From positions 124,001 to 188,000 of the forward strand of contig JAJKHS010000136.1 of the NCBI GenBank assembly GCA_021154885.1: a stretch of DNA of 64,000 nucleotides, read 5' to 3'. The position numbers were made by a program, and so were the translations under genes. This DNA is from Thermoanaerobaculum sp. (GTDB lineage: Bacteria > Acidobacteriota > Thermoanaerobaculia > Multivoradales > UBA5704). The notes under the pieces are model-generated. The model searched no databases and was not told the DNA's origin. It saw only the letters and a list, made by a program, of their open reading frames with translations. Positions 12,605 through 19,404 of this stretch are shown in pieces (the stretch's first letter is position 1; each line of letters starts with the position of its first letter).

Positions 12605-14203
12605 CTACCGCCCCCGCACGGCGATGAGGTGGGTGACCACCGGCCGCTCCTCGCCGACGTGGAACGCCTGGGCCTGCGCTTCGACGTCGCGGTCGGCGTG
12701 GGTGGCGCGCTCGTGCTGGCGCAGATGCTCGATCCAGGATTTGACGAGGAACACCTCGGTGTAGAGGGCGGGATCGGCGGAGTCCACGAACAGGCCCCAC
12801 TGCATGGCGCCGTCGCGCAGGCGGATGCGGCGGACGCCGCGCATGGCCGCCGCGAAGTCGGCGGCGCGGGCGGGGTCGATCTGGTAGCGGACCTCCACCA
12901 GCACGGGGCCGCGCTCGGGCTCCAAGTCGTGGGAGACGATCGGTGCCGGCCACTGGCGGGAGGGCGCCAGGTTGAGCCCCTCGCCGGATTGGAGATGAAT
13001 GCGGAAGGTGCCGGCGAGACCGGCGATCATCCCGGCCGCCGAGGCGAGTAGGGACTTCGACAGGCCGAGGTGCTCGGCCACGGCGCCCCAGAGGACGCTG
13101 CCGCCGGCCAGACCGGCGTAGAAGATCAGCATGTAGACCGAGAGCGCCCGCCCCCGCACCCACGACGGCACCACCGTCTGCACGGCCACGTTGAGGCTGG
13201 AGAGGAGAGAGAGCCAGGCGCCGCCGGCGAGGAGCATGGCGATCATCAACAGCCAGAAGATGCGCACATAGGCGAGGGTCACCGTGGAGCCGGCGAAGAC
13301 CAGCGTCGCCGCCGTCACCACTCCGTCCATCGAGTTGTTGCGCTTGAGACGGGGGAGGACCAGGGCTCCCGCCACCGCGCCCACTCCCAACGCGCCGAGG
13401 AGGAGCCCGTAGCCCTCGGCGCCGGCGTGCAGCTCCCGCTTCGCGATCAGCGGCAGGAGGGCCCAGAGCGAGGCGCCGCAGAGGACGAACGTCGTGCCGC
13501 GGATGATGGGAGCGGTCACCTCCGGCGCATGGCGGACGTAGCGCAGGCCCGTCGTCATGGCGCCCCAGATACGCTCGGCTGGCAGCATCGCCTCCTCCGT
13601 GGGCCGGCGCCAGAAGAAGAGGACGACCAGCACGCCGAGGAACGAGACGGCGTTGACCAGGAAAGTGACGGCCGGCCCGGACGCGGCCACCACCAGGCCG
13701 GCGAGGGCCGGTCCGGCGGCCCGGGCGATGTTGAAGCCGATGCTTCCCAGGGTGACGGCGGCGGGGAGGTCCTCCCGCGGCACCATCTCCGGAATGCTCG
13801 CCTGCCAGGCCGGCCCGTTCAGAGCGGCGCCGAGCCCCAGCAGGAAGGTGAAGCCGAGGAGGATCCAGGGGGTGGTCGCGCCCGCCGCCGTGAACGCCCA
13901 GAGACCGAAGGCCGCGACTGTCATCCAGATCTGGGTGATGAGGAGAAGCCGGCGTTTGTCGAGCACGTCGGCCACGGCCCCGGCCGGCAGCGACAGCAGG
14001 AACATCGGCAGGCTGGTAGCTGCCTGAACCAGGGCCACCAGCGCCGGCGAAGGCGTGAGCGTCGTCATCATCCACGACGCGCCCACGTTCTGGAACCACG
14101 TGCCGACGTTGGAGGCCACGCTGGCGATCCACAGCCAGCGGAACACGGTATGGCGCAGCGGGCTCCAGGTGGAGCGGACCGGGGTAGCCTCAGCCGTCGT
14201 CAC
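12605..14203 (-). CDS. MFS exporter with C-terminal ABM-like domain (MFS_3 type)
   Basis: About 532 residues. The first 400 form a twelve-helix major facilitator (FRWLWIASVASNVGTWFQNVGASWMM, then PAGAVADVLDKRRLLL, the cytosolic loop motif). The last 110 residues are soluble (VLVEVRYQIDPARAADFAAAM ... YTEVFLVKSWIEHLRQHERAT) and look like a dimeric antibiotic-biosynthesis-monooxygenase-type ferredoxin-like fold, the combination found in the MFS_3 'secretion effector' family that includes enterobactin exporter relatives. The substrate is unknown. The GTG at 14203 was chosen because GGAGGG lies just upstream; GTG at 14221 is the longest alternative. It overlaps the end of the HEPN gene. Confidence 0.8.
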   Translation of the reverse strand: MTTAEATPVRSTWSPLRHTVFRWLWIASVASNVGTWFQNVGASWMMTTLTPSPALVALVQAATSLPMFLLSLPAGAVADVLDKRRLLLITQIWMTVAAFGLWAFTAAGATTPWILLGFTFLLGLGAALNGPAWQASIPEMVPREDLPAAVTLGSIGFNIARAAGPALAGLVVAASGPAVTFLVNAVSFLGVLVVLFFWRRPTEEAMLPAERIWGAMTTGLRYVRHAPEVTAPIIRGTTFVLCGASLWALLPLIAKRELHAGAEGYGLLLGALGVGAVAGALVLPRLKRNNSMDGVVTAATLVFAGSTVTLAYVRIFWLLMIAMLLAGGAWLSLLSSLNVAVQTVVPSWVRGRALSVYMLIFYAGLAGGSVLWGAVAEHLGLSKSLLASAAGMIAGLAGTFRIHLQSGEGLNLAPSRQWPAPIVSHDLEPERGPVLVEVRYQIDPARAADFAAAMRGVRRIRLRDGAMQWGLFVDSADPALYTEVFLVKSWIEHLRQHERATHADRDVEAQAQAFHVGEERPVVTHLIAVRGR

Positions 14204-14600
14204 GCCCGCCACCCTCCACACCCGGATGCTCGTCGAGATAGCGGGTGGCCGCGGCGAGGAATCTTCTCCCTTCTGCCATCAGCTCTTCGACGACATCAGG
14301 ATCGACCGCTCTGGCGGTCTCGTAATCGCCGATGTGCCGGAGGTCAAAAGTTCTCGTCAGCAGATGATGAAAAGCGGGATCCAAGAGGCGAGTCCGCGAG
14401 AAGTGAAAACCGTATTGAGCAATGACCTGACCATGACGAGAGAACTCCAAGCCATGGGAGAGAAGCAGGGCCTCCGCGATATAGAAGCAGGCGAAGTAAA
14501 CCCGCGAGCCTGCAATTCCAATGTACCCGCTTTTCCGGAGTAGCTCAGCGGCGTCCAAGGACTCTTCAGCCTTCTCCAGAAAAAGACGAACCTCGTTCAT
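14190..14600 (-). CDS. HEPN-domain protein
   Basis: 136 residues, nearly all helical, with the HEPN pattern: EKAEESLDAAELLRKSGYIGIAGSRVYFACFYIAEALLL at the start and TFDLRHIGDYE further on (the conserved R-x-x-x-DY region; RTFDLRH also gives an R-x5-H that could be the RNase site). It follows a nucleotidyltransferase gene with a four-base ATGA overlap, the arrangement of HEPN/MNT toxin-antitoxin modules in which the HEPN protein is the RNase toxin and MNT blocks it by AMP transfer. Here the order is MNT then HEPN. Confidence 0.8.
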   Translation of the reverse strand: MNEVRLFLEKAEESLDAAELLRKSGYIGIAGSRVYFACFYIAEALLLSHGLEFSRHGQVIAQYGFHFSRTRLLDPAFHHLLTRTFDLRHIGDYETARAVDPDVVEELMAEGRRFLAAATRYLDEHPGVEGGGRDDG

Positions 14601-14929
14601 GCCGCGGCCGGGATGGCCTCTCGCCGGACCGTACGCAGGAAGATGGTCCCGGCCTGTTCGAAGTCCTCGATGCTGACCGGTATTACCGAGAGAGTCAGGC
14701 CCGATTCCAGCGACAGGGGCCACTTCACGGATGACAAGTGCATAATCTCCCGAGCCGCGTTGACCGGTCCTTCGAGGAGCAAGAGCAGATCCACGTCGCT
14801 CCCCTCGCGTTCGTCTCCCCGGGCGTAGGATCCGTACAGAAGAAGTCCGCGAAACCGCTCTCCGTAGAGATCCTTGAGCCCCTTCTCAAGCTCCGAGACG
14901 ACGTTCCGGATGGGTGCTGGCACACTCAT
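14597..14929 (-). CDS. MNT nucleotidyltransferase (partner of HEPN)
   Basis: 110 residues. RGLLLYGSYARGDEREGSDVDLLLLL is the nucleotidyltransferase core: G-S-x-x-R-G plus the D-x-D pair. The start ATG at 14929 overlaps the stop of the upstream luciferase-domain gene (ATGA), and its own stop overlaps the HEPN start (ATGA), so the three are translationally chained. An in-frame ATG at 14938 would add three residues. Expected role: AMP-transferase antitoxin. Confidence 0.8.
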   Translation of the reverse strand: MSVPAPIRNVVSELEKGLKDLYGERFRGLLLYGSYARGDEREGSDVDLLLLLEGPVNAAREIMHLSSVKWPLSLESGLTLSVIPVSIEDFEQAGTIFLRTVRREAIPAAA

Positions 14930-15294
14930 GGCGTCCATTGTACCGGGGAATGCACCACCTCGCCGTACTTCCGAGCCTGCTGCTCGCGCGCCAGCTCGTA
15001 GGAGCGGCGGAGGAGGGCGACGGCGGCATCCACGTCCTCTTCCTTCCTGATGTGGAAGCTCACCCAGCCGCTGTCCGGCAGAATGTGGTGGGGCTCGGCG
15101 AGACCGGCGGCCACCACCTCGTCGCGCACCGGCTTGGGGAAGGCGATGTCGAGGAGGCGGTCGCCGTGGATGTGACCCACCTCCCGCTTGCCGAGAACGA
15201 ACTCGGTCCCGCCGAAGCGGTGAGGCTGGGCCACGACGCCCGGCCAGGCCAGGACTGCCGCTTCGATTTGCTCTCGTGCTCCAGGGACGGCCAT
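14926..15294 (-). CDS. Luciferase-domain protein (DUF5519-like)
   Basis: 122 residues. The stretch FGGTEFVLGKREVGHIHGDRLLDIAFP, then HHILPDSGWVSFHI and ALLRRSYELA, matches a small domain that databases call luciferase because of similarity to a dinoflagellate luciferase domain; its bacterial function is unknown. The conserved His residues (GHIHGD, PHHIL) could form a ligand site. A GGAGAAACT Shine-Dalgarno lies upstream. It is first in a minus-strand operon followed by MNT, HEPN and the MFS exporter. Confidence 0.75.
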   Translation of the reverse strand: MAVPGAREQIEAAVLAWPGVVAQPHRFGGTEFVLGKREVGHIHGDRLLDIAFPKPVRDEVVAAGLAEPHHILPDSGWVSFHIRKEEDVDAAVALLRRSYELAREQQARKYGEVVHSPVQWTP

Positions 15295-16151
15295 AGTTTC
15301 TCCTTCTCCCTCCTTGAACAGCTCAACAGCGGCAATGGGACAGGGGATTCCGCTGCTGCATCCTCCGCAGCCGCAAATGCCTTGTCAGGTGTTGCCACTC
15401 CTGGAGCGGCTCCTGTCGCCGCACATCTGCCAGCCTTCTACTCCGGAAACTAGGCTGCAAATAACTCTCTCGCAGAGGCACGCGCCGAAGTATGAGCCGC
15501 AACTGCATCTTCATATGTTGCCAATATCGCGGCGCGCGGTGCCTTGGTCAATCAAGGTGCCGCATACTCCGGAATCGTGCCGGTTGACGCTGGCCAAGTT
15601 GCAGCAGCGGGCACGAAAGCAGCTCCTCCGGCTTTGGCTCTGGCGGCAGGCATAGAGCCAGTTGCGGCAAATAGTGGGGACGATGCCGCTGCTATTGCGA
15701 GGCGAACGGCCGCTTTCACGACAATTGCGGCTGCTTGACGTTAAGCTGCGGCTTCTGTGTCGGAAGGAATCATTCCTGTTCTGATGTTAGCGGCTCAGGA
15801 GGCATATTTCGCGGCACCTCAAGGTAGGTTTGCGGCTGATAGCACGACCTCGAGCCTAACCACGCCCTCCCTGCGGCTCCCCGCCGTTGTCGAGGAGGTT
15901 CTCGAAGACCTGAAGGAGGCGCTCGGGGCTGGCGCGGACGGGGAGGGGGCCGCCGGGCGCGGACAGTACGATCTTCACCGCCTTGTCGGCGCGTCGGCAG
16001 AAGCCCTCGGCCACCTCTCGCAAGAGAGCGTCCAAGTCCACGACGGCAAAGGCTGAAAATGGTGGCCCGCCTACCGCGAAGTGTTAGAATCTGGCTAAAC
16101 AATCAGCGGCGAACAGGTTCTACTACTAGTGGTCTCTTGAAGGGAGGGCGC
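15295..16151. other. Decayed Ala-rich stretch plus kinase remnant
   Basis: No intact gene. From about 15316 to 15845 both strands read as Ala-rich protein in one frame, broken by several stops. On the plus strand a motif GIxPV (with a GAAPV variant) followed by Ala-rich sequence recurs four times at irregular spacing, so this looks like a decayed repetitive protein gene. It is followed by a truncated copy of the neighbouring histidine kinase (see 15846-16046), then the leader of the membrane-protein gene at 16152. Base composition is clearly less GC-rich than the flanks. Confidence 0.6.
15846..16046 (-). pseudogene. Truncated copy of the creC-like histidine kinase
   Basis: Bases 15886-16046 align without gaps to 18142-18302 inside the intact kinase, with about nine mismatches in 161. 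Bases 15846-15885 align less well to 17866-17905 at the kinase's 3' end. The segment between (17906-18141 in the intact gene) is missing, so this is a fragment with an internal deletion. It encodes the region after the phosphoacceptor helix (MDLDALLREVAEGFCRRADK...ENLLDN), then shifts to Gly-rich and stops. It marks one border of the inserted DUF350/transglutaminase pair. Confidence 0.8.
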
Positions 16152-16700
16152 ATGGCGGACTTCAACATCTCCAGCATCGCGGCGGGTCTGTTGGCCTATG
16201 GAGTGGCGGTTCTCGTCGGAGCTGCCCCGCTGATCTACCTACTGTTCCGGTTCGACATCGAGCTCACGAAGAAGACCGATGAGGAGGCCTTGCTGCGAGC
16301 AGGGCGCCGCTCGATTGCAATTGAGTTGGGGGCGAAGATCTTCTGTCAGGCGCTCCTCGTCCGCCACGCGGTCTTCGTGGTCATGGCAGTGGTGAGGAGC
16401 TTGTTCGTCGACGAGTATTCGTCGAGCGAGGCTGTCTGGCTCGTCGTCCGATGCCTGCTCTCTATAGTCGTCATCGCCGCTCTTGCTCTTGTCTCGGTCG
16501 AGGTGGCCGGGAGGCTTTTCAAGCGTCTGACCAGGAATTTGCAAGAGGATAAGGAAATCTACGAAAGGGATAACGCCGCGATGGCGATATTTTTCTCCCT
16601 TGTTCTCCTGTCGATCACTCTTGTTCTTAACGAGGGAATGGCAGATTTTTCCCGTTCTCTGATCCCATTCGGCCGCACCGGCATCCAGAGTCTGAAATGA
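16152..16700 (+). CDS. Four-helix membrane protein, DUF350-like
   Basis: 182 residues with four predicted membrane helices at about 9-33, 66-84, 94-122 and 142-162. The pattern of a short charged loop (TKKTDEEALLRAGRRSIAIELGA) after the first helix, and DKEIYERDNAAMAIFF before the last, resembles DUF350 (YjfL-type) proteins, which have two such helix pairs. I recall DUF350 genes next to ATP-grasp ligases and phage-shock-type envelope genes. AAGGGAGGG precedes the ATG. The stop overlaps the start of the transglutaminase-like gene (ATGA), so both are made together. Codon use is less GC-rich than the neighbours, pointing to recent transfer. Confidence 0.65.
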   Translation: MADFNISSIAAGLLAYGVAVLVGAAPLIYLLFRFDIELTKKTDEEALLRAGRRSIAIELGAKIFCQALLVRHAVFVVMAVVRSLFVDEYSSSEAVWLVVRCLLSIVVIAALALVSVEVAGRLFKRLTRNLQEDKEIYERDNAAMAIFFSLVLLSITLVLNEGMADFSRSLIPFGRTGIQSLK

Positions 16701-17839
16701 GAAACTCCTCTAAATCGCTATGGAGTGGCGCCTTGGCCTTTGCTCTGTCTCTCGTTGCGCTCGTGGGGCTGAGCCGTCGCGGCTTGGCAAACCCAGACGA
16801 CGACCCAAATGCGACCCGGCTTACGTTGAGAGAGGAGGAGAGGCAATGGGTGCTGCAGTACTCTTTTAGTGGTCCTCTCGGCAAGAGGCGCGAGTTCACG
16901 TGCAGAATCAGTAAAGAAGGAGACCGGAAACTGAGGGAATCAGAGGGTTATCTTCAACAGGATTGGGTGCGGCTCAATGCGGAGCTGGCCGCGAAGCTGA
17001 CCGAAGAAGCCAGGAAGGAAGGCGCACTGCCGTACGGCCAAGCGAAGATCTTTGGCAGGCTTCAAGGCGGGTGGGAATGGGATCCATACGAGCCCATGAA
17101 CCGCAATGATGAGGCCTATCACCGAGACCTGCAGGGAAGGCTTGAGGAGTGGCTCGCGACAAACCTTCAAAAAATGAAGGACGATATCAATTTAGAGTTC
17201 ATGATCAGCCGGGGGTTCTTGCCTCACCAAGGAAAGTGGTTCCTCGACTATTCGAACCTTATCGCCCGAGCGACTCCCGAGCTCGAGGATTGCATTAAGG
17301 TGCTCAATCAGGCGACTTCCGGGGACGCCGAGACGCTGATGGGTTTCTTCCAGATGATGCATTATAGAAAAATCGACGACGTGGAGGGTGGCCGGTTTAC
17401 GAATGGATTCCGAGTCCCTACGTCTGTGCTGATCAAAAATGAGGGTGACTGCGACTCTAAAGCTGCCACCTTCTGTGCCATACAGAGGAATAATCCGGCC
17501 CAGTTGGTAATCTTTCGATCTGCCTGGCCCTCCAACAATCGTAAAAAGGGGCATGCCCTGGTGGGTGTGGAAGCTTGGAAAGAGGGGATGTCCCCTCTCA
17601 AAAGAAGCTGGAATGACGGACCCTGGAAAACTCAGAGGTTGACCTCAATGCTCTATGGAGACCCAATTCTTATGGAAAATCGGTATTACACCCCTGTCGA
17701 CGTTGCTGGATTTGGTCGCACTGAATTTGGCCGGGTATTACCCGGCCGGGAAGGCGAGTATTACGTGATCCCCATCCGTCCGCTCGACAGGTACATTCAG
17801 AAAGCTCCGGCTCGGAAGAGCTCTCACGCCGGAGGCTGA
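16697..17839 (+). CDS. Exported transglutaminase-like cysteine peptidase homologue
   Basis: 380 residues. The N-terminus has a signal or anchor helix (residues 9-25, with RRGLA just after). The C-terminal half holds a transglutaminase-type triad in the right order: NEGDCDSKAATFCAIQ (Cys252), KKGHALVGVEAW (His286) and YYTPVDVAGFG (Asp335). The N-terminal 200 residues are unfamiliar. Members of the fold hydrolyse or form amide bonds; outside the membrane, peptidoglycan peptides or protein side chains are plausible targets, but this is inferred. It is translationally coupled to the four-helix membrane protein and ends 11 bases before the convergent kinase. Composition is again unlike the surroundings. 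Confidence 0.7.
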   Translation: MRNSSKSLWSGALAFALSLVALVGLSRRGLANPDDDPNATRLTLREEERQWVLQYSFSGPLGKRREFTCRISKEGDRKLRESEGYLQQDWVRLNAELAAKLTEEARKEGALPYGQAKIFGRLQGGWEWDPYEPMNRNDEAYHRDLQGRLEEWLATNLQKMKDDINLEFMISRGFLPHQGKWFLDYSNLIARATPELEDCIKVLNQATSGDAETLMGFFQMMHYRKIDDVEGGRFTNGFRVPTSVLIKNEGDCDSKAATFCAIQRNNPAQLVIFRSAWPSNNRKKGHALVGVEAWKEGMSPLKRSWNDGPWKTQRLTSMLYGDPILMENRYYTPVDVAGFGRTEFGRVLPGREGEYYVIPIRPLDRYIQKAPARKSSHAGG

Positions 17840-17850
17840 AGGCTGACAAT

Positions 17851-19404
17851 TTACCCCGGCAACACCACCTCAAACCGCGCCCCGCCCTCCCCGCGGTTCC
17901 CCGCCCGCACAACCCCGCCGTAGCCCTCCACGATCGCCTTGGTGATCGCCAATCCCAGGCCCGTATGGCCGCTGCGGGCGTCCGGCTCGCCGGGGCGGTA
18001 GGTGAAGAAGCGGTCGAAGATGCGGTCCAGGTGGCTCTCGGGGATGCCCGGGCCTTCGTCGTCAATGCGCACGGCGGCGGTCCCGTTCCGCCTTTCGAGA
18101 GTGACGGTCACCGTGCCGCCTGCGGGGGAGAAGCTGCGGGCGTTGTCGAGCAGGTTCTCGAAGACCTGGAGGAGGCGCTCGGGGCTGGCGCGGACGGGGA
18201 GGGGGCCGCCGGGCGCGGCAAGCACGATCTTCACGTCCTTGTCGGCGCGCCGGCAGAAGCCCTCGGCCACCTCTCGCAAGAGAGCGTCCAGGTCCACGAC
18301 GGTTGGAGCCTCGGTCTCCAGCCGGACGTCGATCTCGCCGATCTCCCGCAGGGCGGTGAGCAGCCGCTCCATGCGGGCCACCTCGCGCTGGACCACGGCC
18401 ACGAAGTGCTCGCGGTCGGCCGGATCTTCGATCTCGGCCAGCAACTCGGCGGCCGAGCGGATGGAGGCGAGGGGGTTCTTGAGCTCGTGGGAGACGTCGG
18501 AAGCGAAGGCTTCCAGGGCGTGCTGGTGGGCGGCGAGGCGCGCCGTGAGCTGCTCCAGGGCGCGGGTGAGGTCGCCGATCTCGTCCGCCCGGTGCGGGCC
18601 GCCGAACCGGCCGCGCAGGCGCCCGCGCCGGTCGAGGAGGGCGTTCGCCTCGTCGCGCAGCCGCCGGATGGGGTGGGTGATGGTCCCCGCCAGGAGAAGG
18701 GAGAGGACGGCGGCCACCAGCACCGAGCCGAGAAAGACCTTGAGGACGGCGAGGCGGACCTGATCCAACTCGCGCAGGATGCGCACCGTGGACTGGGAGA
18801 CGAGCACTGCACCCACCACTTGGCCGGCGCTGCGCACCGGGATGGCGCTGTGCAGGGTGAGCGACGGCCGCCACCGCTCGCCGCCCGTGGGCCGGACGGC
18901 GGCGCCGTACTTTCCCGCAAGGGCGGCGGCGACGACGCGGGCGGGGTAGGGCTCCGGGGGCGAAGCGCTCCGCCTCGCCGGTGAAGGAGCCCGCGTCTGG
19001 CGGTACAGCCGGTAGAGTCCGGCCGCGACCTTATATAAGAGGCTGTCCCGCGGCTTGGACGCGGACCGGGAGTAGGCCGCGTCGTCCTCCACCCGGCGGA
19101 GACCCAGCCGGCTGGAGTCGGCCAGGAGGCCGCCGTCGAGGCCGAAGATGCGCAGGCGCGAGTCGGTCCGCTGGTCCAGGCGGCGCAGAACGGCCTCCGC
19201 GCCATTCTGATTCAATGAATCTAATAAGGTCTGCCCGCCCACGGCCGCGGCCAGGAGCCGGCCCTGCTGCACCATGGAGCGCTCCTGGTCCTCGAGGAGC
19301 TGCTCTTCGTAGACGCCCAGGTAGAGGAAGCCCGCCGCCGGCAGGAAGACCAGGAGGACGTTGAACAGGAGGAGCCGGATCGAGATCCGGGAGGGGAGGC
19401 GCAC
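17851..19404 (-). CDS. creC: Sensor histidine kinase, CreC-like
   Basis: 517 residues. Membrane helices at about 11-30 and 219-242 bracket a periplasmic sensor of about 190 residues. HAMP follows (THPIRRLRDEANALL), then a dimerisation helix with the phosphoacceptor in SDVSHELKNPLASIRSAAE (His306) and an ATPase domain with ENLLDNARSFSP, DDEGPGIP and GLGLAI. The GTG start lies three bases after the regulator's stop, with GGAG overlapping that stop. CreC naming rests on the adjacent creB-type regulator and divergent creD; the sensor resembles the ChvG/CreC group. A truncated copy of this gene lies at 15846-16046. Confidence 0.82.
   Translation of the reverse strand: MRLPSRISIRLLLFNVLLVFLPAAGFLYLGVYEEQLLEDQERSMVQQGRLLAAAVGGQTLLDSLNQNGAEAVLRRLDQRTDSRLRIFGLDGGLLADSSRLGLRRVEDDAAYSRSASKPRDSLLYKVAAGLYRLYRQTRAPSPARRSASPPEPYPARVVAAALAGKYGAAVRPTGGERWRPSLTLHSAIPVRSAGQVVGAVLVSQSTVRILRELDQVRLAVLKVFLGSVLVAAVLSLLLAGTITHPIRRLRDEANALLDRRGRLRGRFGGPHRADEIGDLTRALEQLTARLAAHQHALEAFASDVSHELKNPLASIRSAAELLAEIEDPADREHFVAVVQREVARMERLLTALREIGEIDVRLETEAPTVVDLDALLREVAEGFCRRADKDVKIVLAAPGGPLPVRASPERLLQVFENLLDNARSFSPAGGTVTVTLERRNGTAAVRIDDEGPGIPESHLDRIFDRFFTYRPGEPDARSGHTGLGLAITKAIVEGYGGVVRAGNRGEGGARFEVVLPG

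Follow-up and report, generated by a model that had tools for sequence, protein, structure and literature searches.

A DUF350 membrane protein and a transglutaminase-like protein encoded as a recurrent gene pair in distant bacterial phyla

Why do two overlapping genes, one for a small membrane protein and one for a putative exported enzyme, stand together in an acidobacterial genome, and do their products work together? We analysed a stretch of 64,000 nucleotides, hereafter the window, from Thermoanaerobaculum sp. (contig JAJKHS010000136.1), whose genome of 8.2 Mb is labelled G000; G001 denotes a relative of the same genus, G003 a relative of the same family and TG the family of the second gene. 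Gene 1 occupies positions 16152-16700 of the forward strand and encodes 182 residues. Its start at 16152 lies downstream of a Shine-Dalgarno-like AAGGGAGGG (16140-16148, forward strand, from direct reading of the letters) and aligns with the starts of its relatives. Gene 2 (16697-17839, forward strand) encodes 380 residues, and the two open reading frames overlap in an ATGA stop/start junction at 16697-16700, as an initial sequence-only reading of the locus had proposed. The cassette converges on a histidine kinase gene (17851-19404, reverse strand; Pfam HisKA and HATPase_c). Between 17851 and 21665, this kinase gene and a response regulator gene, both on the reverse strand, adjoin creD on the forward strand; relatives of the kinase are also present in G002 and G003, where CreD-like genes lie close by as judged by eye.

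The sequence-only reading took gene 1 for a DUF350-like protein with four helices, and both assignments hold. Gene 1 scores 46.6 bits (E 4.7e-12) with the Pfam model PF03994 (DUF350/YjfL), whose cut-off is 26, and its AF2 model consists of four long helices (pLDDT 86). All 27 members of A5, an alignment of the DUF350s that adjoin TG, likewise match PF03994 at E <= 0.01. The protein consists of a two-helix hairpin in duplicate: aligning its halves with hhalign gave a probability of 99 and an E of 6.9e-18, and in the half-versus-half control with 10 column shuffles E was at most 1.1. Single-hairpin DUF350s of about 72 residues (most 70-110 residues; loci L178-L197) were found in many Acidobacteriota, and four-hairpin DUF350s of about 281-404 residues in other Acidobacteriota. 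The coexistence of single-, two- and four-hairpin forms fits a duplicated series in which the hairpin is the DUF350 unit. A Foldseek search with the gene 1 model gave no match with E below 1.6, and VIA returned a miscellany of helical bundles, with Z values reaching 8.6, that we considered uninformative.

Gene 2 is recognised less directly. Single-sequence searches of Pfam, NCBIfam, PADLOC and PDB sequences returned no match for it, nor did the profile of a mixed TG alignment (A3) searched against PDB sequences; the NCBIfam matches of A3 were scattered over one or two members each and were taken as chance. However, Transglut_core (PF01841) is matched by 15 of the 23 A3 members at an E of 1 or less, with a best value of 5.7e-5. 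Neither the window protein nor any of the 20 members of A4, an alignment of mostly DUF350-paired sequences, matches PF01841 at E <= 1, whereas 13 of 15 unpaired TG relatives (alignment A6) do so at E up to 1. Since the A4 profile matches the A6 profile (E 1.6e-42) and most A6 members in turn match PF01841, gene 2 probably belongs to the transglutaminase-like (TGL) superfamily as a distant member, recognised only via its relatives. The AF2 model of gene 2 (pLDDT 79) resembles TGL and papain-like proteins. Its fold matches are modest and include PeiP (Z 8.2, rmsd 3.6 over 131), 4u65_E from an entry with LapG (Z 8.1, rmsd 4.6 over 141), TglA of S. pyogenes (Z 7.6, rmsd 3.5 over 129), PeiW (Z 7.5), 4fgq_A, which is LapG (Z 7.4), and TG2 (Z 6.7, rmsd 5.0 over 158), although a Z near 8 may be generic; Foldseek gave no match for this model at E <= 0.001. 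The relatives' PF01841 matches and the TGL-like fold model support the earlier description of gene 2 as transglutaminase-like.

That description extended to an export signal and a Cys252/His286/Asp335 triad; a hydrophobic N-terminal segment and the three residues are indeed present. Gene 2 has an N-terminal hydrophobic segment, predicted to be an export signal or anchor and modelled by AF2 as a helix of residues 10-26 (16724-16774, forward strand), and its relatives likewise start with hydrophobic segments. Proteins of the TGL superfamily are expected to place the Cys at the start of a helix and the His and the acidic residue at strands. By sequence order and secondary structure, gene 2 follows this layout: in the AF2 model and the alignment, Cys252 (17450-17452) opens the helix 252-263, His286 (17552-17554) immediately precedes the strand 287-292 and Asp335 (17699-17701), at the third triad position, comes after a strand. 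What does not carry over to the family is the third residue itself. Across 77 aligned sequences including that of the window, position 335 is Glu in 75 and unreadable in one, and Asp is peculiar to the window. The His is present in all 77 and Gln219 in 76; the Cys is also found in 77 of 77, a count that is partly due to construction because rows were picked by the pattern GxC[D/E] and L128, which lacks the pattern, was dropped. Having Asp in place of Glu does not necessarily inactivate the enzyme of the window, since the third residue of HvyA, a periplasmic TGL homologue from Caulobacter (BTLCP) that requires its Cys, His and third residue, can be changed with function kept: the D241N variant is functional and D241A is not (PMC4241560). 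HvyA differs from gene 2 in belonging to another family, and no comparable membrane partner gene is named in the excerpted text of that paper.

The earlier reading had pointed to recurrence in unrelated genomes as a check on the pairing, and pairs were indeed found in Elusimicrobiota, Acidobacteriota and Myxococcota. In 198 Elusimicrobiota genomes, the TG profile matched 30, of which we left out four weak matches in open reading frames over 1,100 residues, yielding 26 TG genomes and loci. At 25 of these 26 loci, a DUF350 gene is adjacent on the same strand and within 60 bp, in either gene order. The 26th is an unpaired TG on contig C29 of G633, a genome that carries a TG-DUF350-TG cluster elsewhere (G633:C60:2193-4744). 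Counted over the 198 genomes, both families are present in 26, TG alone in none and DUF350 alone, above the Pfam cut-off, in two (Fisher p 1.6e-30, taking genomes as independent); two more genomes have a DUF350 below the cut-off and no strong TG. The window's class (148 genomes) presented nine TG matches, four of them strong and all paired (G000, G001, G003 and G710) and five weak and all unpaired. Finally, 329 genomes of Myxococcota, the phylum in which the tree tool placed G459, gave 41 TG matches, with five pairs among the first 30 loci and two further pairs in G830 and G802. TG comes first in 26 of 35 paired rows and DUF350 in nine. On the TG tree, the paired state clusters, requiring 4 changes versus 25.7 for shuffled labels.

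The pair is nonetheless not obligate, because most DUF350s occur without this TG and many TGs without a DUF350. Among 19 TG loci from named genomes, three are paired and 16 are not, and all 16 unpaired loci have no DUF350 nearby. Three genomes from the same family as G333 (G164, G340 and G420) possess TG and no DUF350 genome-wide. TG was detected in a single one of 149 Planctomycetota genomes, the seed genome, and was unpaired there. Conversely, DUF350 is present in 72 of 297 Acidobacteriota genomes, and among the 30 loci listed only that of G333 has a TG beside it. The unpaired TGs with a GDCDSK motif from Pseudomonadota, Planctomycetota and Myxococcota are of the same family and have the same Cys-His-Glu residues as the paired ones, but no DUF350 adjoins them in the loci examined. 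We looked for other partners of these enzymes. The neighbours of unpaired TGs in Gammaproteobacteria, which we take to be PhoH-like and RapA-like genes, looked like ordinary chromosome order. A cluster present at 17 of 24 Myxococcota TG loci was judged to be an antisense reading of TG itself, and a gene that is presumably OmpA-like lies near TG at three of the 24.

DUF350 has been associated with other enzymes. The family is listed as YjfL among predicted folds (PMC4602095) and occurs in PspA, CesT/Tir and polyamine operons (PMC11237479); its members were also detected in our control genomes of E. coli, B. subtilis, Caulobacter and Corynebacterium. The PspA and polyamine operons share with our pair the combination of DUF350 with an enzyme acting on amide bonds, but the fold of that enzyme is different: in those operons it is either an ATP-grasp ligase or a protein resembling spermine synthase. 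It is conceivable that TG carries out a matching formation or cleavage of amides at the outer face, as part of a polyamine-type chemistry like that implied by the operons that join DUF350 to spermine synthase-like and glutathionylspermidine synthetase-like genes (PMC11237479). We regard this as very unlikely, as the pair has no constant neighbour family: when the neighbouring genes of 20 larger Elusimicrobiota neighbourhoods were grouped by clustering, without naming them, no third conserved gene emerged and no other family was found in more than five of the 20 loci. PspA, CesT/Tir, spermine synthase and ATP-grasp partners were likewise absent from the window genes scanned. The word transglutaminase does not appear in the main text of PMC11237479, and the open-access literature that we searched contains no description of a DUF350-transglutaminase pairing, in agreement with the sequence-only reading, which did not know the pairing as a described system.

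A more specific tie between the two proteins comes from the C-terminus of DUF350. The DUF350s adjacent to TG continue for about 20 residues beyond the last helix, and this extension closes with a motif resembling LxP-x-[P/G/F]-xxG, whose Pro and Gly are among the most constant tail positions and are kept in the window copy. In gene 1, this tail spans residues 163-182 (16638-16697, forward strand); the extension past the last membrane helix is a feature of the subfamily and lies outside Pfam's definition. Two-hairpin DUF350s from Gammaproteobacteria (134-138 residues) end at the last helix and have no tail. Scoring a tail as present when the DUF350 match extends to the end of the A5 profile, we detected it in 28 of 28 TG-adjacent DUF350s versus 2 of 42 others, many of the 28 being themselves members of A5 because that alignment was built from paired sequences. 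One of the two exceptions, L142, sits at a contig start with its upstream side missing. The other, L143 (G623:C119), is a second DUF350 copy that bears a tail and has no TG within 1.5 kb; its genome contains a normal pair as well. A follow-up on 140 Myxococcota genomes gave seven DUF350 matches, with tails in all three beside TG and in none of the four away from TG; of the three positives, G830 (LLPLPTLG) and G802 (LLPLPELG) are new and G797 (L102) had already been counted in the first comparison. The recurrence of the pair in distant phyla and the association of the tail with the enzyme suggest that DUF350 and TG are probable partners in acting on the cell envelope.

On which side of the membrane would the tail lie? 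Lys and Arg are denser in loop 1 (1.59 per 10 residues) and loop 3 (1.81) than in the N-terminus (1.06), loop 2 (0.85) and the C-terminus (1.14), which predicts that the DUF350 termini, including the tail, are periplasmic. This is modest evidence that both ends of the protein probably face the periplasm.

We favour, with a probability of roughly 45%, the reading that the pair forms a two-protein module of the inner membrane in which a TGL enzyme is docked, held or gated by DUF350 via the tail. Gene 2 would be an exported, N-terminally anchored enzyme of the TGL fold with a Cys-His-Glu centre (Asp in the window), and it may act on peptidoglycan or on a protein of the envelope by hydrolysing or exchanging an amide bond. 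Gene 1 would be its dedicated membrane partner, with four helices and a conserved cytoplasmic loop present twice, and its C-terminal tail on the periplasmic side would dock TG and hold or gate the enzyme. The overall logic would be that of LapD and the TGL protease LapG, with a membrane protein of another kind in LapD's place. LapD, which has a periplasmic output domain and serves as a receptor for c-di-GMP, recruits and controls the periplasmic cysteine protease LapG (PMC3032545). An inner-membrane protein is combined there with a periplasmic TGL protease, and LapG entries are among the top fold matches of gene 2; DUF350 differs from LapD in consisting of only four helices and a short tail. 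The analogy concerns the way of working and not the family, given that the LapG/BTLCP Pfam model is unmatched at E <= 1 by gene 2 and by the members of A3, A4 and A6.

Alternatively, the tail might be the substrate: TG would cut or cross-link it, and DUF350 would be an effector activated in this way, such as a channel or signal, rather than the holder of an enzyme. The association of the tail with the enzyme, its predicted location on the enzyme's side and its comparatively constant Pro and Gly would all suit a substrate, but a docking motif would appear identical. Moreover, the tail has no constant Gln or Lys (it ends in RLP in G001 and in ELP in G003), and we find it unlikely that the tail is what TG acts on.

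The docking module proposed above concerns the family, and the window copy requires separate consideration. The sequence-only reading had described the cassette as unlike all its surroundings in base composition and as a horizontal insertion beside the kinase gene. The GC content of the cassette (about 50-60%) is indeed below that of the kinase (about 70%), but a HEPN-MNT gene pair and most of the left gap are similarly low (about 53-62%). The same pattern is observed at third positions, where GC is 0.73 and 0.63 in the two cassette genes, 0.64 in HEPN, 0.75 in MNT and 0.92 in the kinase. HEPN (14190-14723; PF05168) and the nucleotidyltransferase MNT (14597-14938; PF01909) together cover 14190-14938 on the reverse strand and adjoin the pair in G001 as well; their third-position GC is low in both genomes of the genus (738-1480 of L004 in the relative). 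The claim of a recent insertion is not supported. An outer marker, an MFS_3 transporter gene (12605-14221, reverse strand; PF05977), HEPN and MNT on the reverse strand and DUF350 and TG on the forward strand follow one another in the same order in the window and in G001, and this conserved order rules out a fresh insertion beside the kinase as the simplest reading.

Sequence identity between the window and G001 is 92.6% over 244 residues for MFS, 46% for HEPN, 62% for MNT, 48% for DUF350 and 28% for TG. The TGs of G001, G003 and G710 are 43-45% identical to one another and 27-31% identical to that of the window, which forms the longest branch on the TG tree (2.26). Third-position GC of TG is 0.63 in the window versus 0.88-0.95 in these three genomes. 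The window copy is thus unusually divergent and GC-poor, and its cassette has either evolved fast in this lineage or been replaced in place by a relative's copy. One could take a further step and view the pair together with HEPN-MNT as a variable, possibly defensive island that is exchanged in place between relatives. Such exchange would account for the low identities of HEPN, MNT and TG beside the well-conserved MFS and for a cassette that is GC-poor in the window alone among the four related genomes. Yet the pair has different neighbours elsewhere. Gene 2 matched none of the PADLOC defence models, the sole match of gene 1 was RTasSLATT (E 2.2), and a plasmid search with the window TG gave no match. 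An island of this kind seems distinctly improbable.

Alternatively, the window copy could be decaying or repurposed under relaxed constraint, which would be compatible with the docking module as the explanation of the family. Its long branch, the change from Glu to Asp, insertions near residues 276-326 around the active site and AT-shifted third positions all point in this direction, and to the extent that this copy may be drifting, these features count against the module. However, both cassette frames are intact and the Cys, the His, GDCDSK, Gln219 and the Pro and Gly of the tail are retained, and we think decay or repurposing rather unlikely.

The region between MNT and DUF350 also differs between the two genomes, as the window has a luciferase-domain gene (14926-15294; PF17648) and a kinase fragment there and G001 has neither. 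The fragment, which the sequence-only reading had not mentioned, is a remnant of the 3' half of the kinase gene with an internal deletion (15843-16046, reverse strand), and it sits across the cassette from the intact kinase. Its segment 15885-16046, which a second alignment extended to 15871-16046, is 94% identical to 18141-18302 and its segment 15843-15885 is 79% identical to 17863-17905. This suggests a local duplication or recombination. The way the remnant is oriented would be consistent with one possible history, a tandem duplication of the cassette with the kinase end and a later loss of one cassette. However, a search of 15295-15842 for a second cassette gave only scores within those of shuffles.

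Turning back to the docking module, a wider reading is that the tail-bearing DUF350 is both the dedicated receptor and the gate of an outer-face TGL enzyme with a Cys-His-Glu centre. The two would form a widespread envelope system that relays a signal outward in the manner of LapD-LapG, through a sensor unrelated to LapD, and the LxPxPxxG tail would be its coupling element. We put this forward tentatively and would sooner doubt it than rely on it. A DUF350 subfamily that is tied to one enzyme by both adjacency and its tail provides a handle on DUF350 function, and the pair, being small and having no constant third gene, is suited to laboratory testing. More generally, DUF350 proteins may be partners of amide chemistry in the cell envelope.
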